From: Candidatus Obscuribacter phosphatis
Lineage (GTDB): Bacteria > Cyanobacteriota > Vampirovibrionia > Obscuribacterales > Obscuribacteraceae
Assembly (NCBI GenBank): GCA_001899315.1
Contig: MOYA01000001.1
Span: 2,434,529 to 2,498,528, forward strand
Length of the DNA stretch: 64,000 bases
Direction: 5' to 3'
Position 1 is the stretch's first letter. The number at the start of each line of letters is the position of its first letter. Position numbers and translations under genes: made by a program. Shown here piece after piece: positions 6,008 to 30,925 of this stretch. The notes under the pieces were generated by a model. The model had not been told where the DNA came from. It did not search any database and saw only the letters and a program-made list of their open reading frames with translations.

Positions 6008-6137
6008 ACCAACTACATATATTGGGTTGACATCTCGTTTAATGTTAGAAATTTCGCCTGCCAGCCGACTAAAGGGGCAAAACCTTCACCCTATTTAGGT
6101 TACAGTTAGCAGCGCTCTTCCTTGACACATAACAATC

Positions 6138-6152
6138 TTAGAGTTAGTCTAA
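6138..6152. promoter_or_regulatory. PerR/Fur-box-like operator
   Basis: TTAGAGTTAGTCTAA is a 7-1-7 inverted repeat with 6 of 7 complementary pairs. It matches 11 of 15 positions of the PerR box TTATAATNATTATAA. It lies 26 bp upstream of the preferred GTG start of a Fur-family gene, which fits autoregulation. It would be inside the coding region if the upstream TTG at 6122 were the start. Confidence 0.5.
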
Positions 6153-6178
6153 ATAGTGTAACCGGAAGAGGAATATCT

Positions 6179-6601
6179 GTGGACACGGCAGAAACAGTTT
6201 TGGCTTCTCGCGGTGTTAGGCCCACTCCTCAGCGTGTGGTGATTACCGAATACCTGCTGAACACAAAGTCGCATCCTACAGCCGACCAGGTCTTGGAAGC
6301 TGTAGCTAATGCCTTGCCGGTTCAGCTTTCTAGGGCAACGGTTTACAACACTCTCCACACTCTTGTAGAAGCAGGGGTAATCCAGGAAGTCTACACAGAA
6401 CCAGGTGGTTGCGCCAGGTACGATGCCAACACTGAGCGCCATCACCATTTCGTCGATACAAAAAACGGTTGTATCTACGATATTCCTTTCGAAGCAGTAC
6501 CATCGCTAGATAAGAGCCTTGACGACAATTACAAAGTCTCTAACTACACGGTGACATTCTTTGGCGAACCAAAACAAGGTCAACCAAAACAAGAATCCTG
6601 A
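6179..6601 (+). CDS. Fur-family regulator, PerR-like
   Basis: 140 residues from GTG at 6179, which has GGAAGAGGA six bases upstream; a TTG at 6122 would give 159. The winged-helix domain is clear: ASRGVRPTPQRVVI, then the recognition helix SRATVYNTLHTLVEAGVI. The metal region has ERHHHFVDTKNGCIYDIP. It keeps the regulatory histidines but lacks the paired CxxC motifs of the structural zinc site; only one Cys remains there. Its neighbour is an exported catalase-peroxidase gene, so a peroxide-sensing repressor is the best guess. A TTGACA at 6027-6032 may be part of its promoter. The assignment as PerR rather than another Fur subtype is inference. Confidence 0.8.
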   Translation: MDTAETVLASRGVRPTPQRVVITEYLLNTKSHPTADQVLEAVANALPVQLSRATVYNTLHTLVEAGVIQEVYTEPGGCARYDANTERHHHFVDTKNGCIYDIPFEAVPSLDKSLDDNYKVSNYTVTFFGEPKQGQPKQES

Positions 6602-6629
6602 TCAATGTGGCAAAGCAAATTTTTGTACT

Positions 6630-6653
6630 GCATCGATGCTAAAGTTTCGATGC
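6630..6653. promoter_or_regulatory. Inverted repeat upstream of katG
   Basis: GCATCGA (6630-6636) and TCGATGC (6647-6653) form a 7-bp dyad with a 10-base centre, 72 bp before the katG ATG and 28 bp after the regulator stop. It lacks a T run, so an operator or a messenger hairpin is as likely as a terminator. It does not match a PerR box. Confidence 0.3.
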
Positions 6654-6659
6654 CGCTAG

Positions 6660-8948
<2,289 letters not shown>

Positions 8949-11139: not shown

Positions 11140-11724
11140 TTGCACTTCAAGAGAAAGATAATAGTTCAAATAGCAGTCACGCTTGCCTCTTACGTAGGCT
11201 TTTGCGTGTATAAGCTATGCGGTCCGATTTCCGGACACCTACAGCTGCAAGTTGCTGATCTGCCCAAGCTTTTCCAATTGACTGCTTTAAGCCTGCTCAA
11301 CGGCATAGCCTATATCTACCTTCTCTTCCGTTCCCCCAACCTATTTCTAGTCACGCCAGCATTCATTTCAGCAATTATCTGCGCCTGGCACTACAGACCA
11401 AGAAAGCCTAGCAAAAGACACATACTTCTTTTATCTCCTCTTCTAGGCGCATTTCCTATAGCCGGCTGGGGGGCTTATGTTTCGATAGCTAGACAAAATT
11501 ATGAACTTTCATATTTAGGACTGAAACCCTGGGTCTCTACTATTCTTGCCTCTCTCTTTCAAGCAGCATTTATTCCTATTGCCACCATATTGGTCTTTCA
11601 TCTAATAGACAAAGAGACCAGGAGCGAAATACTCTTTGCCTTTTCGATACTAACTCTGATTGGCTGTCTGATTTACCTTCAATATTTAGCAGCAACGATG
11701 CCGACAGCCAATAGCTGGCTTTAG
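11140..11724 (+). CDS. Integral membrane protein of unknown function
   Basis: 194 residues with about five hydrophobic helices, including IIVQIAVTLASYVGFCVYKL, LFLVTPAFISAIICAW, HILLLSPLLGAFPIAGWGAY and LFQAAFIPIATILVFHLI. The TTG start lies 3 bp after the stop of the IPT/TIG gene with no strong ribosome site, so translation may be coupled. It ends with a short polar tail and Trp-Leu, as does the next gene. No family is recognised. It resembles the proteins at 3628 and 11770 in size and layout. Confidence 0.6.
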   Translation: MHFKRKIIVQIAVTLASYVGFCVYKLCGPISGHLQLQVADLPKLFQLTALSLLNGIAYIYLLFRSPNLFLVTPAFISAIICAWHYRPRKPSKRHILLLSPLLGAFPIAGWGAYVSIARQNYELSYLGLKPWVSTILASLFQAAFIPIATILVFHLIDKETRSEILFAFSILTLIGCLIYLQYLAATMPTANSWL

Positions 11725-11769
11725 TTGCAACAACAGGCTCTATACCAAACCACACAGTTTATTAAGTGA

Positions 11770-12486
11770 TTGCTGCATAAATTCAGCTCCGGCTTCTCAC
11801 ACGAGAATAGGTCAAGCAAAGCACCAGCGAGAGCCGCCATGAAATCAAGTTATTTTAAAAGAACAGGTTATTTTAAAAGACCAGCTTATTTTACAGCTTG
11901 CCTTAAAAACTTTGACTATTCCACTTTGTGCCTGAATCTTTTTAGAGCACTGCTGGCAGTAAATTTAGTTTGCTGTGCGCACGGAATCTACAAGGTTCTT
12001 CCCCAGACCTGGAACCTAAAGCGCGAGCCCCTTGTCTGGGGTTTGGACTCATGTAGAGTATTGCTTGACGGCGTGCTCGCTAGCTCCATCTCAATTTTCT
12101 CACCGGTGATGCTACCTATCGTGGTAGTTGCCATAGTAGCTCTCGTACTTACTCATCGAAAACTCGGTATCGTCGACCTCTGCAACTTGTCTAAGGCACT
12201 TGCACCCACATTAAGCTTGCCATTTTGGGCAACCTATGTGACATCGCACCGGGACCAAGATAATTCCAATCACTTTAGCTACAGTAATGAATGGTATACA
12301 AAGGTACTAGAACTACTGGCTCAGTTCTCTGAGATAGTACTTTTTCTTACAGCGCTCTACATACTTCTATCACCAAGATGGAAAGGAAAACGCTCGCCGG
12401 CTATTGCTGTGCTTGTCCTATTCCTTTGTCTTCAGATAGGTATAAGTCTCATAAGTTTCATGATGACCACAAATTTCTGGCTTTAA
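11770..12486 (+). CDS. Integral membrane protein of unknown function
   Basis: Up to 238 residues from TTG at 11770. ATG at 11839 is a plausible alternative and would remove a polar leader of 23 residues. The N-terminal part contains an 18-bp duplication encoding SYFKR/GYFKR. Four or five hydrophobic segments follow, for example IVVVAIVALVLT and ALYILLSPRW, and the C-terminus is TTNFWL. A loop between the third and fourth segments is polar and His/Asn-rich. No family is recognised; it is probably a diverged paralogue of the preceding membrane protein. Confidence 0.55.
   Translation: MLHKFSSGFSHENRSSKAPARAAMKSSYFKRTGYFKRPAYFTACLKNFDYSTLCLNLFRALLAVNLVCCAHGIYKVLPQTWNLKREPLVWGLDSCRVLLDGVLASSISIFSPVMLPIVVVAIVALVLTHRKLGIVDLCNLSKALAPTLSLPFWATYVTSHRDQDNSNHFSYSNEWYTKVLELLAQFSEIVLFLTALYILLSPRWKGKRSPAIAVLVLFLCLQIGISLISFMMTTNFWL
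11848..11895 (+). repeat. 18-bp tandem duplication
   Basis: Two full units of AGTTATTTTAAAAGAACA and a third partial one, in frame within the membrane-protein gene. They encode a repeated (S/G/A)YF(K)R motif. Confidence 0.85.
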
Positions 12487-16275: not shown

Positions 16276-17145
16276 TCACGGTTTGACAGGCTTTCCCGAC
16301 TCGCCAGACTTGCCAGATGACTTGCTAGATGCCTTGCTTTGACTAGGATCGCGCCCAATCTTAGATTCAAAGACGATATTGTCCATCATCGACTCAATTT
16401 GGTCCCTTTGACCGGGAGAGTAAGAAACTTCAATAAGATCAACTTTGCGCTTAAGCCCGGCAGGCACTTCAAAGTCTTTGGGGTTATAGGGAATCTTCTT
16501 ACAGCTTGTAGTATCAAGTTTAAGCAACTTGCCACTTCGCAAGTCGGCAAGCATACTGTCATCAATCTGAAAGGACATGCTCTTTGGCAGTCTTTTCAAA
16601 TCCTGACCACGCGTATAACTGTAACAGCGCAGTGGTAAGGAACCAAGCCTCGGCGAAAAGACCAGACGCTTGTAAAAATCTAGAATCGGGTCAGCCACCA
16701 AAATCTCGTCGCAGGCATAGCTCTCGGTATTTCGCACCACATATTTGGAACATTTCAGTCCACAAATTTTGCTTTCGCCGACTTTCACCCGCTTAGACAA
16801 AGCTTCTTTAGCAATCTTCCGCCTTTCTTGCTTTGGATCGATACTGGCCCAGGGACTGGTCAAAACAATCGAATTGAAATCAGCTATCTCACCAATCCAT
16901 TCGACCTTTTCTTTTGGGCGGAAGCAATGCACTTTATAGTCAGGCGCCTTGACTACGAAATGACAGCCCATTGGTTCAGTCGCTATAGCTATGGCTTTCT
17001 CGGTCAACCAAACTTTCAGATAATTGGCTTCTTGCTTTTGCTCAAGCACCCATTCTTGAGGTGCAGCAAGCACCGCGACTGATGTGCACTGAAAGAATAA
17101 CACCAGGACGAAAACCAGATAAGACAGCCGAAAGAATCTGCTCAA
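16276..17145 (-). CDS. Exported protein, paralogue 2 of a tandem pair
   Basis: 289 residues from TTG at 17145. GAGGTGGGG lies about 5 bases upstream, and this start gives a clean signal peptide (FRLSYLVFVLVLFFQCTSVA). The frame is open further, to 17202. It shares extended identity with the next gene upstream: VHCFRPKEKVEWIG near residue 75, a later YSPGQRDQIE-type segment, and a Cys-containing core (CGLKCSKYVV). The tail is Ser/Gly/Lys-rich. The fold is unknown; the beta-rich look with an early KVHCF block may indicate an envelope protein. It starts 13 bp after its paralogue's stop, so they form an operon. No family is recognised. Confidence 0.68.
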   Translation of the reverse strand: MSRFFRLSYLVFVLVLFFQCTSVAVLAAPQEWVLEQKQEANYLKVWLTEKAIAIATEPMGCHFVVKAPDYKVHCFRPKEKVEWIGEIADFNSIVLTSPWASIDPKQERRKIAKEALSKRVKVGESKICGLKCSKYVVRNTESYACDEILVADPILDFYKRLVFSPRLGSLPLRCYSYTRGQDLKRLPKSMSFQIDDSMLADLRSGKLLKLDTTSCKKIPYNPKDFEVPAGLKRKVDLIEVSYSPGQRDQIESMMDNIVFESKIGRDPSQSKASSKSSGKSGESGKPVKP

Positions 17146-17158
17146 AATAAGCCCCACC

Positions 17159-18010
17159 TCAACGATGCTCCGGTCTTTTTTCAGTCTTGCGACTGCGATC
17201 ATCTAGACGCGATTCAAATCCGACGCTATCTATGAAATCGCCGATTTGCTCGCGCTCTCCAGGTGAATAGGAAACATCAAGTAGATCGACCTTTCTTTCA
17301 AACCCCTTGGGCAGCTGGAAATCTTGAGCACTGTAGGGCACTCTCTTACAAGATAAAGTTGTCAGTTTAACAATCTTACCCTGCCGAATATCATTGGCAA
17401 TGCCGGTATTTATCCAGTTTTCCTTTGACTTGGCTGAAATAGCATGCCCTCTGGCAAAATACTCATAATAGAGTGGAATCGCCTCAAAAAAGGGAGTACT
17501 TACCAAGCGGGAATAAACCTCGCATATTTCCGGTTCAACCTTGATCTCGTCAGCCACCACAATTGAAGAAGTCTTGGTGTTGTAAATTCTGGTCTTGAAT
17601 CCGAACTGCTGCCCATTCTCGAAAGAGCTTGGCAGCCGAAAGCGCTCCACCTGCTTAGGAACGGCATAAGGATTAGTCATAACCATCGAGCTGAAGTCCT
17701 TAATCTGACCTATCCACTCAACCTTTTCTTTTGGTCTAAAACAATGCACTTTCCAGTCGGGATGACGAGCTAAAATGACGCAACCATGCGGCTGCATTTC
17801 AGCGCGAAAGGCTTTCTCGCTCAAGCGAACAGTCAAAGTGATACGAGCCTCGTGCTTTTGCACCAAAAGCCACTCTGTTTGAGCAGCAAAAGCAGGCAGG
17901 CAACTCAAAAGCACGCTGCACAGCCCCAGACTGGTCAGAGACAAAAGGCGTATGCAAGGAAAAAAACTGACCTTTTTCACGAGGCTCTTTCCGCATAATT
18001 GGGCTTTCAT
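17159..18010 (-). CDS. Exported protein, paralogue 1 of a tandem pair
   Basis: 283 residues with a signal peptide (RLLSLTSLGLCSVLLSCLPA, cleavage near FAAQ). The mature protein opens EWLLVQKHEARITLTVRLSE and has DWKVHCFRPKEKVEWIGQIK, matching its downstream neighbour over the whole length, so the pair arose by tandem duplication. Near the C-terminus both have RKVDLLDVSYSPGEREQI. No catalytic motif or known family is recognised. The start ATG at 18010 follows an AT-rich stretch. The gene is divergent from the interrupted small gene at 18040. Confidence 0.68.
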   Translation of the reverse strand: MKAQLCGKSLVKKVSFFPCIRLLSLTSLGLCSVLLSCLPAFAAQTEWLLVQKHEARITLTVRLSEKAFRAEMQPHGCVILARHPDWKVHCFRPKEKVEWIGQIKDFSSMVMTNPYAVPKQVERFRLPSSFENGQQFGFKTRIYNTKTSSIVVADEIKVEPEICEVYSRLVSTPFFEAIPLYYEYFARGHAISAKSKENWINTGIANDIRQGKIVKLTTLSCKRVPYSAQDFQLPKGFERKVDLLDVSYSPGEREQIGDFIDSVGFESRLDDRSRKTEKRPEHR

Positions 18011-18039
18011 ATATCATAAACGATACAAGAAAACGTTGG

Positions 18040-18255
18040 ATGAAATTGCAGCTGAAAAGACACCGATATTTTCTACTTCTGGCGGTTATCACTGCTCTAT
18101 TTCAGTCTGCACCCTTGCCAAGCTAGGCTGCTGCGCCGCTGCAAAAATACAAAGAATTTGAACAACTCTTAGACGCTAACAAACTAACCCAAGCAAAGAA
18201 GCAGGCTCTAGAGCGCATCAAGACTTATCCCGATGATCATCTAGGCTACCGATAG
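18040..18255 (+). pseudogene. Small exported-protein gene broken by an in-frame TAG
   Basis: From ATG at 18040 the frame encodes a typical signal peptide (MKLQLKRHRY, then FLLLAVITALFQSAPLPS). It hits TAG at 18124-18126 and then continues open for 42 codons (AAAPLQKYKEFEQLLDAN and so on) to a second TAG at 18253-18255. CAG to TAG would restore a signal peptidase-like site followed by a helical stretch that looks like the first TPR hairpin. It is therefore probably a decayed gene, broken by a point mutation and perhaps also truncated at the 3' end. A sequencing error or amber suppression cannot be excluded. The ribosome site is weak. Confidence 0.55.
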
Positions 18256-18256
18256 A

Positions 18257-19657
18257 CTACAGGGAAAGCCTAAGCACATCTTTCAGCCCACCCTCCCAAA
18301 GCTCTACTTCCACAGGTTTTCTTTTCTTCTTTACCGTGCCAACATTAGAAGGCTGCAGAAGCGGTACTGTGCCTGAGCTACTATCCAAAACAACGAGCTT
18401 GATTCTGGCATGCTTTCCTTGCCGATCACTGACAAAGATCGTGGTCGCGCCGACTCTAAGGGGCTCAATCAAGAAAGATCTTGGGTTCAACAAAGTCACC
18501 CTAGTCATCGACGGGTCAGGTACGATCACTCTAGTTAAGTCTTGATTAGAGACCACTTTAGCGGCGGAATTTTTGCTTATCTTGTAGTTATAGCCTTTCA
18601 TCCAGATGCCATAAGCAAGAGCCGGTCTATCTATATCAGGGAATTTAGATTCCGGTGCCCGCGACTGCGACTGCGAGTGAGCGGGGTTATCCATATCATC
18701 AGCTAAATCTTGCTCATCAACAGCTTCGAAGTGCAAGACAATATACTCGCCATCAACATCTTTGGCACAAATAGTCGCCCTGCCGGTCTTTTGCGCCAAC
18801 AAGAAGAGCTTGCCATCAGCACCGGTGGGAAATACAGTGTCTAGACAATCTGGATTATTGCTTGCCAGCTCAACTAGAGGTTTATACCAACGCAACATGC
18901 GCCCACTACCTACTGCAATCTTACTTTCGCCAGCGAAGGCAATTCTATCTGTCCCATGCGGTTCATAATACTTCTGACTTTTGCCCTGGCAATTCTGGCT
19001 GCTAACCTCTGCCACCCCGATGCGCTTGCACACCTCTGGCTTTTGACGAGCTCTGACTTGACGAGCAACAGCGGCGTCAGCGGCGCCTGGCGCCACCATA
19101 TGTAATACCGGTACATCATCATCGGCGGCGACCGATTCTTCTATCGCCTTTGGCTTGACTTCAACCATGAAAGCAACAATGCCATGATTCTCACCCTCAA
19201 AGAAATGACGGCTAATAGCACTCTGGGCTGGCGCCCCTTGTGCCCGAGCGCTCGCCCTAATATATACCTCAGTTTCGGCCACCGCCAGATTATCGCAAAG
19301 CAAAGGCTTATCGACCGAGGCTTGAGAGATGCGCTCCCCTAGGAAAAGACAAAGGGCTTCAGAGGGAGCCAAAGAAAGCTTCTTAAAGCTTCTCCATTCG
19401 GTCAGACGTTTGTCGACAGCCTTTTTGAGAACTGGAGTCACCAAAAGTAAAGCCGACTGAGAAGAAGACGGAAATGACACATCAGTAGAACCAGAAGAAT
19501 CTGCTTCGCCCGCCAGAGCAGGCATACCAAAAGTAAAGCCGACTAGAAAGAATAGCGACACAGCCGCTGTCTTATTTTCTGGCAAATTTCTGATATTCCT
19601 GATAATTCTGAGGTTTAGCCGAAACTTTCGCGATAACCGAGAACCACTAATAAACAT
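18257..19657 (-). CDS. Exported protein with pilus-formation N-terminal-like domains
   Basis: Up to 466 residues. TTG at 19585 gives a tighter signal peptide (AAVSLFFLVGFTFGMPALAG) and avoids overlap with the upstream gene. Near residues 365-420 there is a domain like the CpaC/RcpA N-terminal family: LTRVIVPDPSMTRVTLLNPR, then VGATTIFVSDRQGKH and KLVVLD. An earlier block (DRIAFAGESKIAVGSGRML to GRATICAKDV) looks like a diverged second copy. Such domains sit in secretin-linked periplasmic proteins of tight-adherence or type II/III systems, but no secretin or pilus gene is near. The function is uncertain. Confidence 0.65.
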   Translation of the reverse strand: MFISGSRLSRKFRLNLRIIRNIRNLPENKTAAVSLFFLVGFTFGMPALAGEADSSGSTDVSFPSSSQSALLLVTPVLKKAVDKRLTEWRSFKKLSLAPSEALCLFLGERISQASVDKPLLCDNLAVAETEVYIRASARAQGAPAQSAISRHFFEGENHGIVAFMVEVKPKAIEESVAADDDVPVLHMVAPGAADAAVARQVRARQKPEVCKRIGVAEVSSQNCQGKSQKYYEPHGTDRIAFAGESKIAVGSGRMLRWYKPLVELASNNPDCLDTVFPTGADGKLFLLAQKTGRATICAKDVDGEYIVLHFEAVDEQDLADDMDNPAHSQSQSRAPESKFPDIDRPALAYGIWMKGYNYKISKNSAAKVVSNQDLTRVIVPDPSMTRVTLLNPRSFLIEPLRVGATTIFVSDRQGKHARIKLVVLDSSSGTVPLLQPSNVGTVKKKRKPVEVELWEGGLKDVLRLSL

Positions 19658-25149: not shown

Positions 25150-25177
25150 TGTCAATTCAAGTCTGTCAATTCAAGTC
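25150..25177. repeat. 14-bp tandem duplication
   Basis: Two exact copies of TGTCAATTCAAGTC, followed by a further TGTC, between two convergent genes. Confidence 0.9.
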
Positions 25178-25185
25178 TGTCTAAA

Positions 25186-27045
25186 CTAGTTTGCAGTTCC
25201 CAGCATCTGCTCATGCCAGAGGCATAGCTCTCTCATTTCAGTTTCAGGAGCAAAACCAACTTTCTGCATAAGGCTGAAAAAAGCCGGGCTGGCTTCTCTC
25301 AACAGGATGGGAGGTGTTATTTCTTTGTGAAAGTCGGCATTGAGTTGCCAGAGGCGGCGAGAGAATTGCAGTTCCTCTCCTATGGGCACTGAGGCTCTGT
25401 GAGAAGGCGAGGTATATGGCAAGCAATAAGGACTGCGGCAGTAGCTTCCGTCGGGAAGACTTAGAACCAGACCGCCTTCTCTACTTCCAGCCAGAAAGTC
25501 TCGACTATCTAGTATGTCTAATATGGAAGCGCCGCTCTGTCGAGCTCTAATTGTCAGGGCGCAGACTGCTCTTATCTTGACTGGCAAAGGCAACAATTCT
25601 TGTACTTGCAAAACAGTGGCACCAGAAAAGATATCATCATCAAAAAGAATATAGTCACCGCCCGGTATCTTATCCAGCTGTAAATCAATGGCTTCGGCAC
25701 CTGGGCGGGCCACCAAAAATGGTGCAGCTCCGCCATCAGACAATGGAAAGGCGCGTGAGATTTTCAGATCAATGGTACCTGGAATGCAAGGGTCAAGACT
25801 AATTACTTTCTGCCCTCTAGCAAGAGTCTTTACCGCCTCAAGCTGTTCCTTCAGCGCTAGCAAATCCACCTGCACCAGTCTTTCTTCATCCGGTTTCTTC
25901 GCAAAGCGATGGACGCAAGCGAAGAGTTCTTGCAGGTCTGTCAGAAATCTCTCTCCGGCTTCCCTCACACCCTGATGTGTTTTTTGCCAGGCACCTGTCG
26001 CCCATTCCAGTTCCTGCCGCAAATATATAATTGCCCTTTTCGGACTTGGTTCATCAATTTTTGATATCGAAAAACTCTTATCCCCAATAAGCCTGTCTTT
26101 CCAGAGCCAGAAACTGGCTGTGGTGCCTTGTATCTGCTCAGCAGAATCACTGCATCGCAACATCTGAGAAGAAATATTGCGGCTTGACTCTTCTACAAAA
26201 AGAATCTCCTCTCTTTCTATGCTCGCACTTAAAAGCGGACTCTGTCGATAACGCCAGAAGGCTTCTTCGCAACCGGGGCGAGCCACGCAAACAGCACTGC
26301 CTGATTGGCTGAAGGCGAGAGAAAAGCGGGCATTGTCTGAACCAAAGACATAGGCTACCTCCAGCCAGTCATCAGGGTCTACAAAATCAGGTAAAAGACT
26401 GCGGGGAATATTTCTCAGTAAATACTGCTTTAGGCGCGATATAACATCGGTGAAGTTGACCATACGATCGGTAGCCAGAGCTTCCCAGGAGCATTCCATC
26501 AACCAGGGACTTCCCTTCACGGCTTCTTGCACCAGATGAAGGCGATGACAGGCTCTCAAAGCCTCCTCCCGACACTTGGGCATGACATAGCTATCATGGG
26601 ACGGCGATAAATAACCTGCAATTACAATTTTTCCAGCAGCTTTCAGTGCCCGGGCAGCGATTTCCATCATCTCTATATGCCCATGGTGTACCGGACAAAA
26701 GGCCCCCGTAGAAAGAAGCACAAATAGACGACGGTCAGAAGAACTTGGGCATATATCTTGAGCGAGACTAAGGTCTTGTAGGTTTGTAGCAAGTTTGTGC
26801 AGCGGTGTGCAAAGCCAATTGAGGCGGAAATAGTCTGCTGAATTCAACTCCGCCGCTGTGGCACCGTCATTGAAGAAGCCAGCTTCAAATAGATTACGGG
26901 CCGTATCTTCTGCCCTTTCACCGGTTAATTGGGGCAGGACGAGACTGTAATAGGGGTCCAGACTGGCTCTGGCGATCATTCTGGAGGCTTGTTCAGGGTC
27001 CTCGAAATTATTCAACTGGTGAAATGCATCAATTGTCATAGCCAT
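25186..27045 (-). CDS. NMN adenylyltransferase fused to a phosphoribosyltransferase-like domain
   Basis: 619 residues from ATG at 27045; the frame is open to 27114. After about 105 unassigned residues comes a nucleotidyltransferase domain: GAFCPVHHGH at 114-123, GYLSPSHDSY near 145 as in eukaryote-type NMNATs, FGSDNARFS near 235 and the ISSxxxR end motif at 291-297. A helical linker leads to a type I PRTase-like loop, YILFDDDIFSGATVL near 465, which binds PRPP in that family. Thus one chain may form a mononucleotide and adenylylate it to a dinucleotide; this is inference. The start overlaps the stop of the NAD synthetase fusion gene by 17 bp, so translation is coupled. Confidence 0.78.
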   Translation of the reverse strand: MAMTIDAFHQLNNFEDPEQASRMIARASLDPYYSLVLPQLTGERAEDTARNLFEAGFFNDGATAAELNSADYFRLNWLCTPLHKLATNLQDLSLAQDICPSSSDRRLFVLLSTGAFCPVHHGHIEMMEIAARALKAAGKIVIAGYLSPSHDSYVMPKCREEALRACHRLHLVQEAVKGSPWLMECSWEALATDRMVNFTDVISRLKQYLLRNIPRSLLPDFVDPDDWLEVAYVFGSDNARFSLAFSQSGSAVCVARPGCEEAFWRYRQSPLLSASIEREEILFVEESSRNISSQMLRCSDSAEQIQGTTASFWLWKDRLIGDKSFSISKIDEPSPKRAIIYLRQELEWATGAWQKTHQGVREAGERFLTDLQELFACVHRFAKKPDEERLVQVDLLALKEQLEAVKTLARGQKVISLDPCIPGTIDLKISRAFPLSDGGAAPFLVARPGAEAIDLQLDKIPGGDYILFDDDIFSGATVLQVQELLPLPVKIRAVCALTIRARQSGASILDILDSRDFLAGSREGGLVLSLPDGSYCRSPYCLPYTSPSHRASVPIGEELQFSRRLWQLNADFHKEITPPILLREASPAFFSLMQKVGFAPETEMRELCLWHEQMLGTAN

Positions 27046-28855
27046 TTCTTTCAGGCATACCCAGAGGTTTAGAGATGCCCGGCGAGCGCTTTCTTGGCAA
27101 ACCGCAGCGTTCAAAAACCACGTCGGTCCTCATAATTATTTTCTTTCCCTCTTTTCCTTTCAGCGCTTGCGAATCGTGCAGTACTCGGTGGTCTATTAAA
27201 AGAGCTTCTCCGGCGCCGAGAGAAAGTGCGGCAATAACTTCATCATCCCGAGCAAGCCTTGTCCAGTCTTCATAGACACGCTGCTTTAAGGGCAGTTCAA
27301 TTTGTGGGTCTTTTATAAGTCTAGTGGCGCCACCATGGGTAGCGTCGGAGTCGGTAAGATAAAGGACTAGACTCATCATGGTGCGTTTGCCTTCATGGTA
27401 ATCAAAAGGTGCATCATAATGCGGTACCAAGAGCCCACCTTCTACATACTTTATAAAGCGCATAAGAGGATTTACCGCCACCGCCCGCCAAATAGGGTAA
27501 TCGTCCCAGTCTGCCGGGGTATTTTCTTGCATAATTCGCAGTCGCGGGAAATCAGGGCAGAGACAAAGGCGTCGAAAAACTATATTGGATAGGTCTTCAT
27601 TGAAAATAGATGCACGGTAAGAGCCGATTGGGTCAATGTCGGGGCGATAGTCTTTCAACATGCCGTTCAAGCCGACAGGCACCCATTCGAGCTTATCAAG
27701 CAAGGATACAAAACTCCTGCATTCTTCCGCCCTAAGCAATCCCGAAATAACGAAGGCCGAGTCCTCAAAACTGCTTACCGGCTTTCTCTGCGGCACTATA
27801 TTGGGCTTTAGAGATTCATCTAGTTGGTCAATTATTGGCTGCGGCAAGACAAAAACATTGACAAATTTACCTGCAGCCATACCACCCTTGAGCTCATCCT
27901 CGGTGAATTCTCGGCGCCAACCGCCCGGCACAGGTCTTTCCATAACATCTAGATGCACTGCCGTCGACCCGGCAACATATTTGTGATAGTTCTGCCGGTT
28001 TAGCTTATCAAGACGAGCTGAATATTCGTCATATTCGACCCTGGCATTGCCCCGAAGAGAATCTTTCAGGTGCCTCTTTAGTCTATCGTCTCGCAACGAA
28101 AGAAGGAGCGAGTAAAATTCTATAAAATCATAGGGCACACCGATGAGTTCTTCATCTGTTCTACCGTCGTAGATATCGCCTGTAGGGGTCGCTTCTATCA
28201 CCGACTGAGGCAAATGCAAATACTCAGCCAGCCGGCTAACCTCACTTTTGTGCAGGTCTGAAATCAATTGCAGGTCAACCATGGCGTCGGCGGCCTTGCC
28301 GAAATAGCCTATATAGCCGCCTTCATCCCTGTTTGTTGTTCCCAGCAAAATAGCCGGTTTATCTTGCATAGTGAGCAAGCTGGTCAGGTAAAAGAGTGCC
28401 GGAGTGCGTAGATATGATACTAACTGACCGGCGGCCCAGTCATCGCCCTTCTCTCCAAAAGCCCCGTCCAAGGCAGATTTCATTGCTTGAAAGCTGGCAC
28501 TGAGATCCACCTTAATGAGGTCAACAAGATTGCTATCACAGCCTCTTCTTACAGACTCAACCACAACCTCACCGCGGTCCATTGCCACCTGCTGGTTGCT
28601 TGTACCTTCTTCAATAAGATATGGAAGAAGAGCTGCAGTAATCTTCTCAATAGGAGAGTCAGGTAGTTTCGCCGCTCTGACTGCAATAGCCAGTGTAAGA
28701 GCGGAATCGATACCGCCACTGATGCCAACAACCACTGCCTTCAATCCCGAGTTTCTCAAATAACCATTGAGAAGCAGGCATTTTGCTTGCAGGTATGGCT
28801 CTTCACGAAAGCCTCTCAGTCGCCGCAAATAAGCCAGAGCTTCTTTGATCTGCAA
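27029..28855 (-). CDS. NAD synthetase fused to a 2-oxoglutarate/Fe(II) oxygenase
   Basis: 608 residues from TTG at 28855, which has GGAGAG 7-8 bases upstream; the frame is open to 28891. Residues 1 to about 290 are an NH3-dependent NadE domain with the pyrophosphatase loop VGISGGIDSALTL near 45, GTTNRDEGGYIGYFGKAAD near 185 and TPTGDIYDGRTDEE. No glutaminase domain is present. The C-terminal half has a prolyl-4-hydroxylase-like double-stranded beta helix. Iron ligands are H and D of PHYDAP near 478 and the distal His in LHDSQAL near 560, followed by the 2-oxoglutarate Arg in IMRTDV. This fusion is not one I know. It is coupled to the NMNAT-PRTase gene. Confidence 0.82.
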   Translation of the reverse strand: MQIKEALAYLRRLRGFREEPYLQAKCLLLNGYLRNSGLKAVVVGISGGIDSALTLAIAVRAAKLPDSPIEKITAALLPYLIEEGTSNQQVAMDRGEVVVESVRRGCDSNLVDLIKVDLSASFQAMKSALDGAFGEKGDDWAAGQLVSYLRTPALFYLTSLLTMQDKPAILLGTTNRDEGGYIGYFGKAADAMVDLQLISDLHKSEVSRLAEYLHLPQSVIEATPTGDIYDGRTDEELIGVPYDFIEFYSLLLSLRDDRLKRHLKDSLRGNARVEYDEYSARLDKLNRQNYHKYVAGSTAVHLDVMERPVPGGWRREFTEDELKGGMAAGKFVNVFVLPQPIIDQLDESLKPNIVPQRKPVSSFEDSAFVISGLLRAEECRSFVSLLDKLEWVPVGLNGMLKDYRPDIDPIGSYRASIFNEDLSNIVFRRLCLCPDFPRLRIMQENTPADWDDYPIWRAVAVNPLMRFIKYVEGGLLVPHYDAPFDYHEGKRTMMSLVLYLTDSDATHGGATRLIKDPQIELPLKQRVYEDWTRLARDDEVIAALSLGAGEALLIDHRVLHDSQALKGKEGKKIIMRTDVVFERCGLPRKRSPGISKPLGMPERNGYDN

Positions 28856-28938
28856 AGGTCTACTCTCCGTTCTACTCAGGACAAAAGACAATCAGGCAAT
28901 AGTGAATCACAGAGAGCACACCAACATAAGTTCAGACT

Positions 28939-29526
28939 TTACCTATTCAACCTCTGAGCATAGGCATAAATCGCCAAGATACTGAGCGCATCGGTTATCT
29001 CGCCGCTTGCCACCATCTCTAGTGCCTGCCCAAACGGCACTTTACGCAAAGCGAGGTCTTCTGTACCTTCCGGTTCTGCCTCACCCTCGGTCAAACCAGT
29101 GGCAAGATAGTAAGTAGCTTCTTCATCAGATACCGAATTAGACAAATAAGACCGGCCAAGCACCTCATAATTAGAAGCTGTCAGACCAGTTTCTTCTTTC
29201 AATTCACGCACCGCTGCAGAGAGCGGGTCTTCACCCTGGGGGCAGCCGCCCTCAGGTATTTCCCAACTATACAAATCAAGCGGATATCTATATTGCCCAA
29301 CCAGATAAGTATTGCCTTCCTCATCTATTGGCAAGACACCAATAGCTTTGTTTTTATAACTAACAGTGGTATAGGTGCCGGGCTTACCATCGGGGCGAAT
29401 CACATCGTCCTCTTGAACCCTTATCCAAGCATTGTCATAAATTTCTTTCTTCTTGAGTGTTCTCCAAGGACTCTTGACTGGGCTTGATATAAAGCTCGGC
29501 AATGGGCTTGACATATTCTTCGTCAT
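28939..29526 (-). CDS. Nudix hydrolase, ADP-ribose pyrophosphatase type
   Basis: 195 residues. The Nudix box is complete (GGCPQGEDPLSAAVRELKEE, then TGL) near residues 100-122, and the preceding LVGQYRYPLDLYSWEIPEG matches ADP-ribose pyrophosphatases (NudF/YqiK-like). These hydrolyse ADP-ribose to AMP and ribose 5-phosphate in the cytosol. The start ATG has AGGGAGC about 6 bases upstream and lies 10 bp after the permease stop. Its place before two NAD-biosynthetic fusion genes suggests a role in recycling a NAD-derived product. Substrate choice within the Nudix family is an inference. Confidence 0.87.
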   Translation of the reverse strand: MTKNMSSPLPSFISSPVKSPWRTLKKKEIYDNAWIRVQEDDVIRPDGKPGTYTTVSYKNKAIGVLPIDEEGNTYLVGQYRYPLDLYSWEIPEGGCPQGEDPLSAAVRELKEETGLTASNYEVLGRSYLSNSVSDEEATYYLATGLTEGEAEPEGTEDLALRKVPFGQALEMVASGEITDALSILAIYAYAQRLNR

Positions 29527-29536
29527 CTAAGGCTCC

Positions 29537-30925
29537 CTAAGACTCAATTCTAACTAGGTCTTGGTCTGACAGTTCCACACCAGACTGACTAAGAGTATAC
29601 GCTCTCAATTCTAAAAATCTGAGCGGCAAATAGACAAAGGCGGCAGCCAACCAAGCCTGCAAGCTGGGAATGCCGAACTTGAGGCTAAAGCCAAACAGGG
29701 GTAAGGCTCCCGATGTCAGAACACCAACTGCTATACCGCAAATGAGAGCGGTTAAGGCGGCCGGATGATAGACCTTTGTGCTCGCACTTTTCATATGAGC
29801 ATCGCGATTGACGGCAAAGACGCCTTTGCCTGTTCGGCGCGAAAGCCACCATTCGCAAAGCATCACCACAGTGGCGGTCGGCAAAATCACACAGTTGAGC
29901 GAAACAATCGCCTCAAGTGATCGAGCCGCCCCCGATATCGATAGTACGGCCGCTGTAACTGTACCCAAACCAGCTAAAATAGCCACCCAAACTCTCAGGC
30001 TCAGTTTCTTAAGTTGAATGCAAGCCTGCACCGAACCAAACAAATTAGAATCGTTGACGGCAAAATATGACACAGTAAGCACCAGCACGGCTAGCGCCGT
30101 AAAACCCCCAAAGCTATAGTCATTCATAAAGGCGGTCGCTGCACCATATTCGGTGATGCCGGTGCTGTATGCCACCATATAACCGGTTATTGGGAAAATA
30201 AACTGACCAATCAAGAGTGAAATAATCAAGGGCCAAGCGCAGGTAGAAATCTTGCTTTTGCCAAAGCGCCAATAATCACATTCATTACCCCAAACAGCAA
30301 AGCCTATGACAAAACCCGAAATTCCAGTCAAAGAAGCCGCCAACGAACATTTCTCGCCGACTTGCCAGATAGAGACAGGGCAACTGCCGAGGGTCTTAAA
30401 GAATGTATAGCCCACCCATAATATAAGCAGCGGTGCCGCCACAAAGCGAGCAAAATTAGCCACACCTTTGAAGCCAAAGAAATTATTGGCAGCCATGAGA
30501 ACGGCACAAATAGCCGAAAGCCACATCATTGGCAGCTTCAGCGAAATCAAGCCAGCCAAGCCTTCAGCCAGAAAGAGGGCAGCCAGTCCATAAAAGGCAA
30601 TGAAAATAAGCACCAGATTGAGAGCCACAAATTTGGCACCGCCCGAGCCGAAGACCAAGCGACTGAGCATGGTGTAGCTCAGTCCAGTATGGGCACCAAG
30701 CAGACCGGCGGGTATGCTGTAAGCCAGCAAAAGCAGCCCGCTAAAGACAGTAGAAATAATCACCTGGCGCAGACTATAACCTTGCTTAAACCATTCAAAA
30801 CCGATGAGCACACCGGGAAAAACGGTCACCATTGTGATCCAGAGAAGGGCCATGGTGAAGCTACTGCGCCTTGCCTCTAAGGGCACGGGGCCATCTAGAT
30901 AATCGTTTTCTGAAGCCAAATGCAC
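29537..30925 (-). CDS. NCS1-family permease
   Basis: 462 residues with about 12 membrane helices. Hallmarks of the nucleobase-cation symporter-1 family are LLGAHTGLSYTMLSRLVFG near residue 72, a helix with FGFKGVANFARFVAAPLL, and VWGNECDYWRFGK near residue 215. Members import cytosine, purines, hydantoins, thiamine or pyridoxine. Here the gene order (permease, Nudix, NadE fusion, NMNAT-PRTase fusion) suggests uptake of a base or pyridine precursor for dinucleotide synthesis; this is inference. The GTG at 30925 or TTG at 30919 starts the gene, and GGAGAAGG before it is buried in an inverted repeat. Hcp lies upstream. Confidence 0.88.
   Translation of the reverse strand: MHLASENDYLDGPVPLEARRSSFTMALLWITMVTVFPGVLIGFEWFKQGYSLRQVIISTVFSGLLLLAYSIPAGLLGAHTGLSYTMLSRLVFGSGGAKFVALNLVLIFIAFYGLAALFLAEGLAGLISLKLPMMWLSAICAVLMAANNFFGFKGVANFARFVAAPLLILWVGYTFFKTLGSCPVSIWQVGEKCSLAASLTGISGFVIGFAVWGNECDYWRFGKSKISTCAWPLIISLLIGQFIFPITGYMVAYSTGITEYGAATAFMNDYSFGGFTALAVLVLTVSYFAVNDSNLFGSVQACIQLKKLSLRVWVAILAGLGTVTAAVLSISGAARSLEAIVSLNCVILPTATVVMLCEWWLSRRTGKGVFAVNRDAHMKSASTKVYHPAALTALICGIAVGVLTSGALPLFGFSLKFGIPSLQAWLAAAFVYLPLRFLELRAYTLSQSGVELSDQDLVRIES

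Follow-up and report, generated by a model that had tools for sequence, protein, structure and literature searches.

Within the 64,000-nucleotide stretch of Candidatus Obscuribacter phosphatis DNA analysed here (the window) are two overlapping genes, one for a NadE-type domain joined to a 2-oxoglutarate (2OG)/Fe(II) oxygenase domain and the other for a nicotinamide mononucleotide (NMN) adenylyltransferase (NMNAT) joined to a phosphoribosyltransferase (PRTase)-like domain, so that two proteins hold all four predicted activities. They represent a cassette with a core of nadE, oxygenase and NMNAT-PRTase, which we take to be a horizontally mobile accessory module, widespread in giant phages and plasmids and found in some bacteria. 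We suggest, with a probability of about 0.5, that the module makes a dinucleotide of the nicotinamide adenine dinucleotide (NAD) type, amidating and oxidatively tailoring it, beside the host NAD route and in NAD-centred conflict between phage and host. The identity of the module, the co-occurrence of its parts, its patchy distribution, the conservation of motifs and the mutual exclusion of two oxidative enzymes in the sampled records were all computed directly.

The cassette genes

The preliminary description placed four consecutive minus-strand genes at 25186-30925 of the window, and the open reading frames (ORFs) were found at those positions. In what follows G000 is the window's own genome, G002 (locus L029) and G008 (locus L039) are relatives with the cassette, L033 is a Leptospira plasmid and L037 is phage ME3. 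The cassette features are:

27029..28891, minus strand: NadE-2OG fusion gene, 620 amino acids; likewise fused in L029/G002 and G008, two neighbouring genes in plasmids
27890..28891, minus strand: NadE-type domain, residues 1-334; PF02540, family profile against the PDB, separate clade
27086..27889, minus strand: 2OG/Fe(II) oxygenase domain, residues 335-602; invariant H, D, H, R, AlphaFold and Foldseek
25186..27039, minus strand: NMNAT-PRTase gene, start Met26 at 27039; architecture common to two other Obscuribacterales, four plasmid lineages and jumbo phages
26110..26733, minus strand: eukaryote-type NMNAT domain; PF01467, PDB 9rpk
25189..26028, minus strand: probable divergent type-I PRTase domain; profile against the PDB, stand-alone homologue in phage ME3

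Both fusion genes are present together in G000, G002 and G008, which are 3 of the 60 relatives searched. Identity to the window proteins is 95% for NadE-2OG and 94% for NMNAT-PRTase in G002, and 53% and 44% respectively in G008. As the fusions recur in L029/G002 and in the divergent G008, they are not frameshift artefacts, and a sequencing frameshift as their origin is ruled out by three agreeing assemblies, one of them (G008) at no more than about 42-53% identity. The NadE-oxygenase fusion is thus real, but it is not general, being a local joining of genes that elsewhere are two neighbours, as in the plasmids. The PRTase profile, run on a sample of 386 genomes from the phylum, matched only the window's own genome, and this patchiness, with that among the 60 relatives, fits a horizontally acquired unit.

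The two genes do overlap as first described, but the 17 bp given then holds for a start at ATG 27045 (Met24), whereas with Met26 (27039), the start that the close relative shares, the overlap is 11 bp; the longest ORF, from TTG 27114, would give 86 bp.

The flanking genes

The other two genes of the preliminary description were proposed as members of the same pathway:

28939..29526, minus strand: Nudix hydrolase gene, NudE-like, a flank outside the cassette; adjoins the permease gene in the cassette-free G001
29537..30925, minus strand: NCS1 permease gene, cytosine-permease-like, a flank outside the cassette; homologues independent of the cassette, G001 synteny

Both identifications are good (Pfam matches of 1e-15 for Nudix and 3e-11 for the permease). 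In the window the cassette is flanked by genes for P-ATPase, UspA, Hcp, permease and Nudix on one side and TPR, DltD-like and UvrA-like proteins on the other. G001, of the same genus but without the cassette, has the order P-ATPase, UspA, Hcp, permease, Nudix, TPR, DltD-like, UvrA-like, CoA-binding, in which Nudix and TPR have no cassette between them and the order is otherwise that of the window. G008 has its cassette on its contig C5, with the nearest permease and Nudix homologues on contigs C13 and C10. Permease and Nudix, adjacent in G001 and apart from the cassette in G008, are therefore ancestral flanks, and the cassette has been inserted where the Nudix and TPR genes would otherwise meet. 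An NCS1 permease homologue is present in 34 of 40 genomes of the family, whether or not the cassette is there, and the plasmid and phage copies examined had none beside them. The proposal is thus supported in that the two fusion proteins are one conserved functional unit, but not in the steps given to the permease and Nudix hydrolase. A four-gene operon for import of a base by the permease, ribosylation, adenylylation, amidation and Nudix recycling, for which one could cite the common strand and short gaps, is contradicted by this synteny and is very improbable.

Neither composition nor repeats mark an insertion edge, as GC is flat at 0.47-0.49 and no inverted repeats were found. Close to the insertion edge, at 25150-25177 of the window, there is a perfect 14-bp tandem duplication (TGTCAATTCAAGTC twice), which lies in the space that separates the TPR gene from the cassette's 3' end.

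The NadE domain

The NadE domain matches PF02540 over residues 34-261 (E=1.8e-27; 96.5 bits against a cut-off of 21) and TIGR00552 at 92.7 bits (cut-off 63.65). It has SGGIDSA at 28700-28720, GTTNRDEGGYIGYFGKAADAMVD and GRTDEELIG, and the PP-loop SGGxDS and the GTxNxxE...GY..K..D...D pattern are conserved across the NadE domain as in NAD synthetases. The profile of the cassette NadE family has PDB entry 3fiu as best match (E=3.5e-29), and retains the PP-loop and Lys/Asp motifs of solved NadE enzymes. We take 3fiu to be the enzyme from Francisella that is reported to act as an NMN synthetase, and for this reason nicotinate mononucleotide (NaMN) is also a possible substrate. NMN synthetase activity is described in PMC3376133. 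The most likely function, predicted from the motifs, is acyl-adenylation and amidation of a carboxylate.

In our tree the cassette NadE proteins form a single clade apart from the housekeeping glutamine-dependent (Gln-NadE) domains, with support of 100/100, and phage and bacterial sequences are intermixed in it. The sequences from phages ME3, X1 and V45v66 are long branches of uncertain placement.

The 2OG oxygenase domain

The 2OG domain of the window is below the Pfam cut-off (PF13640, 4e-4), and homologues exceed it. The residues expected are HYD at 27413-27421, the His of LHD at 27176-27178 and Arg588 at 27128-27130, and these H, D, H and R are invariant in alignments of 7 and of 11 homologues. 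An AlphaFold model (pLDDT 80) found 2OG oxygenases in the PDB by Foldseek (E=4.8e-7, probability 1.0), so that invariant residues and fold together give the HxD...H...R/K triad on a double-stranded beta-helix.

The NMNAT-PRTase protein

The NMNAT domain matches PF01467 and the eukaryote-type NMNAT of PDB 9rpk (E=5.8e-11 by sequence, 4.8e-22 by family profile). It has GAFCPVHHGH at 26677-26706 and ISSQMLR near residues 314-320, and the two adenylyltransferase motifs, GxFxPxHxGH and SSTxxR, are present in the window protein and in most relatives.

The PRTase domain is likely, although not proven, to be a divergent type-I PRTase. The window protein has no Pfam call in this region, nor any match to a Ter PRTase family in Pfam. 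In the PDB, a profile made from 11 relatives matched mostly type-I PRTases, the best being 4rqa, a hypoxanthine PRTase (E=7.7e-4), followed by APRT, HGPRT, OPRT, ComF and PRPS. There is a counterpart of the type-I motif hhhDDxxxTGxT, with FDDDIFSGAT at 25615-25644, a motif YILFDDDIFSGAT compatible with a phosphoribosyl pyrophosphate (PRPP) loop, and a conserved DILDxRDF...GGL...RxPY. The stand-alone homologue in phage ME3 has E=2.4e-13 against a profile made without ME3.

With regard to the preliminary description, the named motifs (SGGIDSA; HxD...H...R; GxFxPxHxGH and ISSxxxR; FDDDIFSGAT) are thus all there and conserved in most relatives, and the NadE, 2OG, NMNAT, Nudix and NCS1 calls are backed by Pfam, NCBIfam, PDB or fold searches. 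The eukaryote-like NMNAT is firm, but its fusion partner is a PRTase only as a likely assignment.

Plasmids and phages

The search for homologues and their neighbourhoods that had been proposed found the same architecture in relatives, plasmids and phages. The three parts are adjacent genes, with their order unchanged and their ends mostly overlapping, in plasmids of Streptomyces, Paenibacillus thiaminolyticus, four Variovorax strains and Leptospira interrogans; in Paenibacillus one more small gene separates nadE from the oxygenase gene. In viral contigs L055, L058 and L059 the three genes are near one another, and in L057 they lie within about 7 kb. L040-L044 also have all three, with NMNAT-PRTase located elsewhere in each genome. 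Xanthomonas phage X1 has NMNAT-PRTase, 2OG and NadE in a different order, and in Variovorax phage V45v66 a weak NMNAT match lies close to 2OG and NadE. Overall NMNAT-PRTase (PRTase alone in ME3) was found in 14 of the 15 phage records searched, with only a 33-kb fragment lacking it, and 2OG in 12 of the 15. In addition to these, L117 and L118 each have NMNAT-PRTase and 2OG.

Several copies have neighbours related to NAD or to defence. Separate NAMPT and NMNAT genes are beside the cassette in L048, as read from translations, and in X1, as annotated; in L048 the genes, NadM-Nudix and NadV (NAMPT) at 6072-8439, are immediately upstream of nadE. The Leptospira plasmid has an NrtR-type regulator (Nudix and winged helix; L033 11208-11909) directly upstream of the cassette, and TIR-domain and putative abortive-infection genes (16696-18694) downstream. 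NADAR is among the neighbours in phage L046. In Acinetobacter phage ME3 (L037 9918-16352) the stand-alone PRTase-like ME3_299, NadE and a macro-domain protein are within a Ter cluster (TerF-vWA, TerC).

Some further loci can be recorded here. On Gordonia and Mycolicibacterium plasmids (L035 7755-9499, L036 7749-9532) a stand-alone relative of the cassette NMNAT is paired with a phosphotransferase-family kinase gene, possibly as a separate unit. In huge phages a short NMNAT-like gene (L119 7974-9308) and a 2OG-like gene (L074 6773-9138) are beside or near a SIR2-like gene. On Variovorax plasmid L032 an Asp/Glu racemase-family gene (11327-11968) has a 4-bp overlap with the start of nadE. In G008 the cassette is immediately followed by a gene for a tandem two-domain NadD-like protein (L039 6360-7661), and in the window's own genome another such gene (G000:C3:665109-666371, L071) lies upstream of one for a probable NAD kinase.

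Two oxidative partners

L046 and L048, two large jumbo-phage records, have no detectable 2OG gene of the cassette family anywhere in the record. Adjoining nadE and NMNAT-PRTase, each has instead a gene for a radical S-adenosylmethionine (SAM) protein:

L046 5376-6473 and L048 11873-12991: RaSEA-like radical SAM; CxxxxCxxC in both, 38% mutual identity

These match TIGR01210, the RaSEA family, nearly full length at 167.4 and 165.4 bits respectively, below the curated cut-off of 212.15, so that they are relatives of RaSEA rather than assigned members. No RaSEA-like protein was found in the other 17 of the 19 records searched. Among the 18 PRTase-positive records (14 phage and 4 plasmid), 16 have 2OG without the RaSEA-like protein and 2 the reverse; the chance of this exclusion by random placement is 1/153 = 0.0065, a figure that ignores kinship and fragment ends. 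Apparently 2OG and radical SAM are interchangeable for the oxidative step of the cassette, and by analogy with other pairs of O2-dependent and O2-independent enzymes this suggests that the radical SAM protein is the O2-independent substitute. The swap also suggests that C-H activation is common to both.

Possible functions

The window's own genome has on its contig C5 a complete operon for housekeeping NAD salvage, with Gln-NadE (an ORF of 968 amino acids), PRPP synthetase, NAPRT and NadD, in which the PRPP synthetase and NAPRT labels come from our reading of the translations, and there are further NadD paralogues. The cassette is therefore not the only nadD/nadE of the genome and we reject a housekeeping NAD role for it, although an accessory role is untouched. 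The complete separate set is half of what the preliminary description had named as counting against its proposal.

In the accessory role that we favour, the PRTase would join a base to PRPP to give a nucleotide, NMNAT would combine this with ATP to give a dinucleotide, probably of pyridine type, NadE would amidate a carboxylate through an acyl-adenylate, and the 2OG or RaSEA-type enzyme would carry out the oxidative tailoring. The base, the order of the steps, the product and the biological role are those that we infer; one example of a role would be to maintain a usable or NADase-resistant dinucleotide pool. Conflict between phage and host is suggested by the presence of the module in jumbo phages and plasmids, by the genes for NAD salvage and the NADAR, macro, NrtR and Ter genes beside these copies, and by the TIR and abortive-infection genes in Leptospira. 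Several points weigh against this proposal. No gene identifies the base, and the radical-SAM replacement is known from two contigs, one of which is 95.7 kb and possibly a fragment. The PRTase is highly divergent, its PRPP motif varying at the second acidic position (S in X1, H in ME3), and its fold search, with a model cut too short at the N-terminus of the domain, gave no significant match. As to NMNAT, Paenibacillus has a degenerate motif, in G008 and L058 the second motif is incomplete, and ME3 lacks the domain, so that adenylylation may not be universal.

The best of the alternatives, although we think it unlikely, is plain NAD replenishment by a route resembling that of Preiss and Handler, from nicotinate to NaMN, then nicotinate adenine dinucleotide (NaAD) or NMN, and then NAD, with the oxygenase only preparing or repairing the base. 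There are candidate domains for all three steps, the NadE and NMNAT motifs are mostly intact, and the nearest NadE structure by profile is 3fiu, presumably the NMN synthetase of Francisella. Phages are also known to restore NAD by means of NadV, NadM and NadR (PMC9503650). However phages L048 and X1 have NAMPT and NMNAT already, which makes the cassette probably more than another NAD route, its PRTase is of type I whereas the known nicotinate and nicotinamide PRTases differ, and the near-universal oxidative enzyme and its radical-SAM swap are left unaccounted for.

A more speculative and rather doubtful alternative, by analogy with archaeosine, is that the NadE-type ligase adds an amino acid amine such as that of lysine, not ammonia, to a nicotinate-type carboxylate, after which cleavage of the C-N bond by the 2OG or RaSEA-type enzyme would leave the amide. 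2OG enzymes commonly N-dealkylate, and the one in the cassette would be an O2-dependent equivalent of RaSEA, achieving C-N cleavage by way of hydroxylation. Both interchangeable enzymes could thus converge on oxidative C-N cleavage, as in archaeosine synthesis by ArcS and RaSEA, where RaSEA acts after lysine has been ligated, turning the adduct into the product, and where the ligase refuses NH4+, Asn and Gln in several archaea (PMC11298593). The nearly full-length RaSEA-family match (165-167 bits) is in accord with this, as is a single-domain NadE without glutaminase, for which earlier genome-context work found no partner subunit (PMC3376133). However other single-domain NadE enzymes use ammonia, scores below the 212-bit curated cut-off mean that the chemistry may differ, and no lysine-handling signature was identified.

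We put forward tentatively, as something we would not bet on, that the cassette makes an NAD-type amide independently of ammonia and glutamine, with an amino acid ligated by NadE and its skeleton then cleaved by the 2OG enzyme or, where oxygen is absent, the RaSEA-type one, or else a hydroxylated NADase-proof analogue, and that jumbo phages and plasmids spread it against NAD-depletion immunity.

Synthesis of a signal nucleotide akin to that of the Ter biosynthetic module, outside NAD metabolism, is improbable: the ME3 copy is accompanied by TerF-vWA and TerC genes, and the ME3 Ter system is described with signal-biosynthesis PRTases (PMC7824862), but Ter genes are neither annotated nor detected in the surroundings examined of the other copies and the cassette PRTase has no Pfam Ter-PRTase match.

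Comparison with known systems

The cassette NadE resembles NH3-dependent NAD synthetase and 3fiu, presumably the Francisella NMN synthetase, in family and catalytic motifs, these being its best PDB matches, but the cassette family is of about 320 amino acids, has a conserved C-terminal HKY...GGW extension and is linked to 2OG or radical SAM. The L046 and L048 proteins that replace 2OG are of the family of RaSEA of archaeosine synthesis, but fall below its cut-off and sit with NadE and NMNAT-PRTase; ArcS was looked for within the neighbourhood only. A PADLOC scan of the cassette gave no defence model beyond generic 2OG and Nudix matches, so it is not a known antiphage system of that collection. 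The Ter biosynthetic module is also a PRTase-containing nucleotide pathway and has the ME3 copy inside its cluster, but its PRTase is of a different family, there are no TerD, TerC or TerF genes nearby in the window, and none were detected around the other copies examined.

NARP1 (Adps and Namat; PMC12774641) shares phage-encoded reconstitution of NAD, but no common sequence or architecture is apparent in a comparison made without profiles. Closest in logic is phage NAD salvage of the NARP2 type, NadV with NadM or NadR (PMC9503650), in which a PRTase and an NMN adenylyltransferase are also phage-borne. However the cassette PRTase is of type I, not the type-II nicotinamide PRTase of NARP2, and is fused to a eukaryote-type NMNAT, with NadE and an oxidative enzyme added. 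Neither NARP2 component is part of the window's cassette; L048 and X1 have the two NARP2 functions beside theirs as separate genes. In the 2022 survey of viral NAD genes, which covers NadV, NadM and NadR, neither NadE nor 2OG came up in a text search (PMC9503650).

The family databases and literature that we searched held no description of the NadE, oxygenase and NMNAT-PRTase combination, in agreement with the preliminary description for the pair of fusions. The components are known, and it is the module, the PRTase-NMNAT fusion and the interchangeable oxidative partner that appear to be new. Known phage NAD pathways stop at ordinary NAD. The cassette, which jumbo phages share with plasmids from several phyla, has in addition a ligase for amidation and an oxidative step that is almost constant, and this, with the apparent swap of O2-dependent and radical-SAM enzymes, implies either a new NAD-type molecule or a new amidation chemistry.

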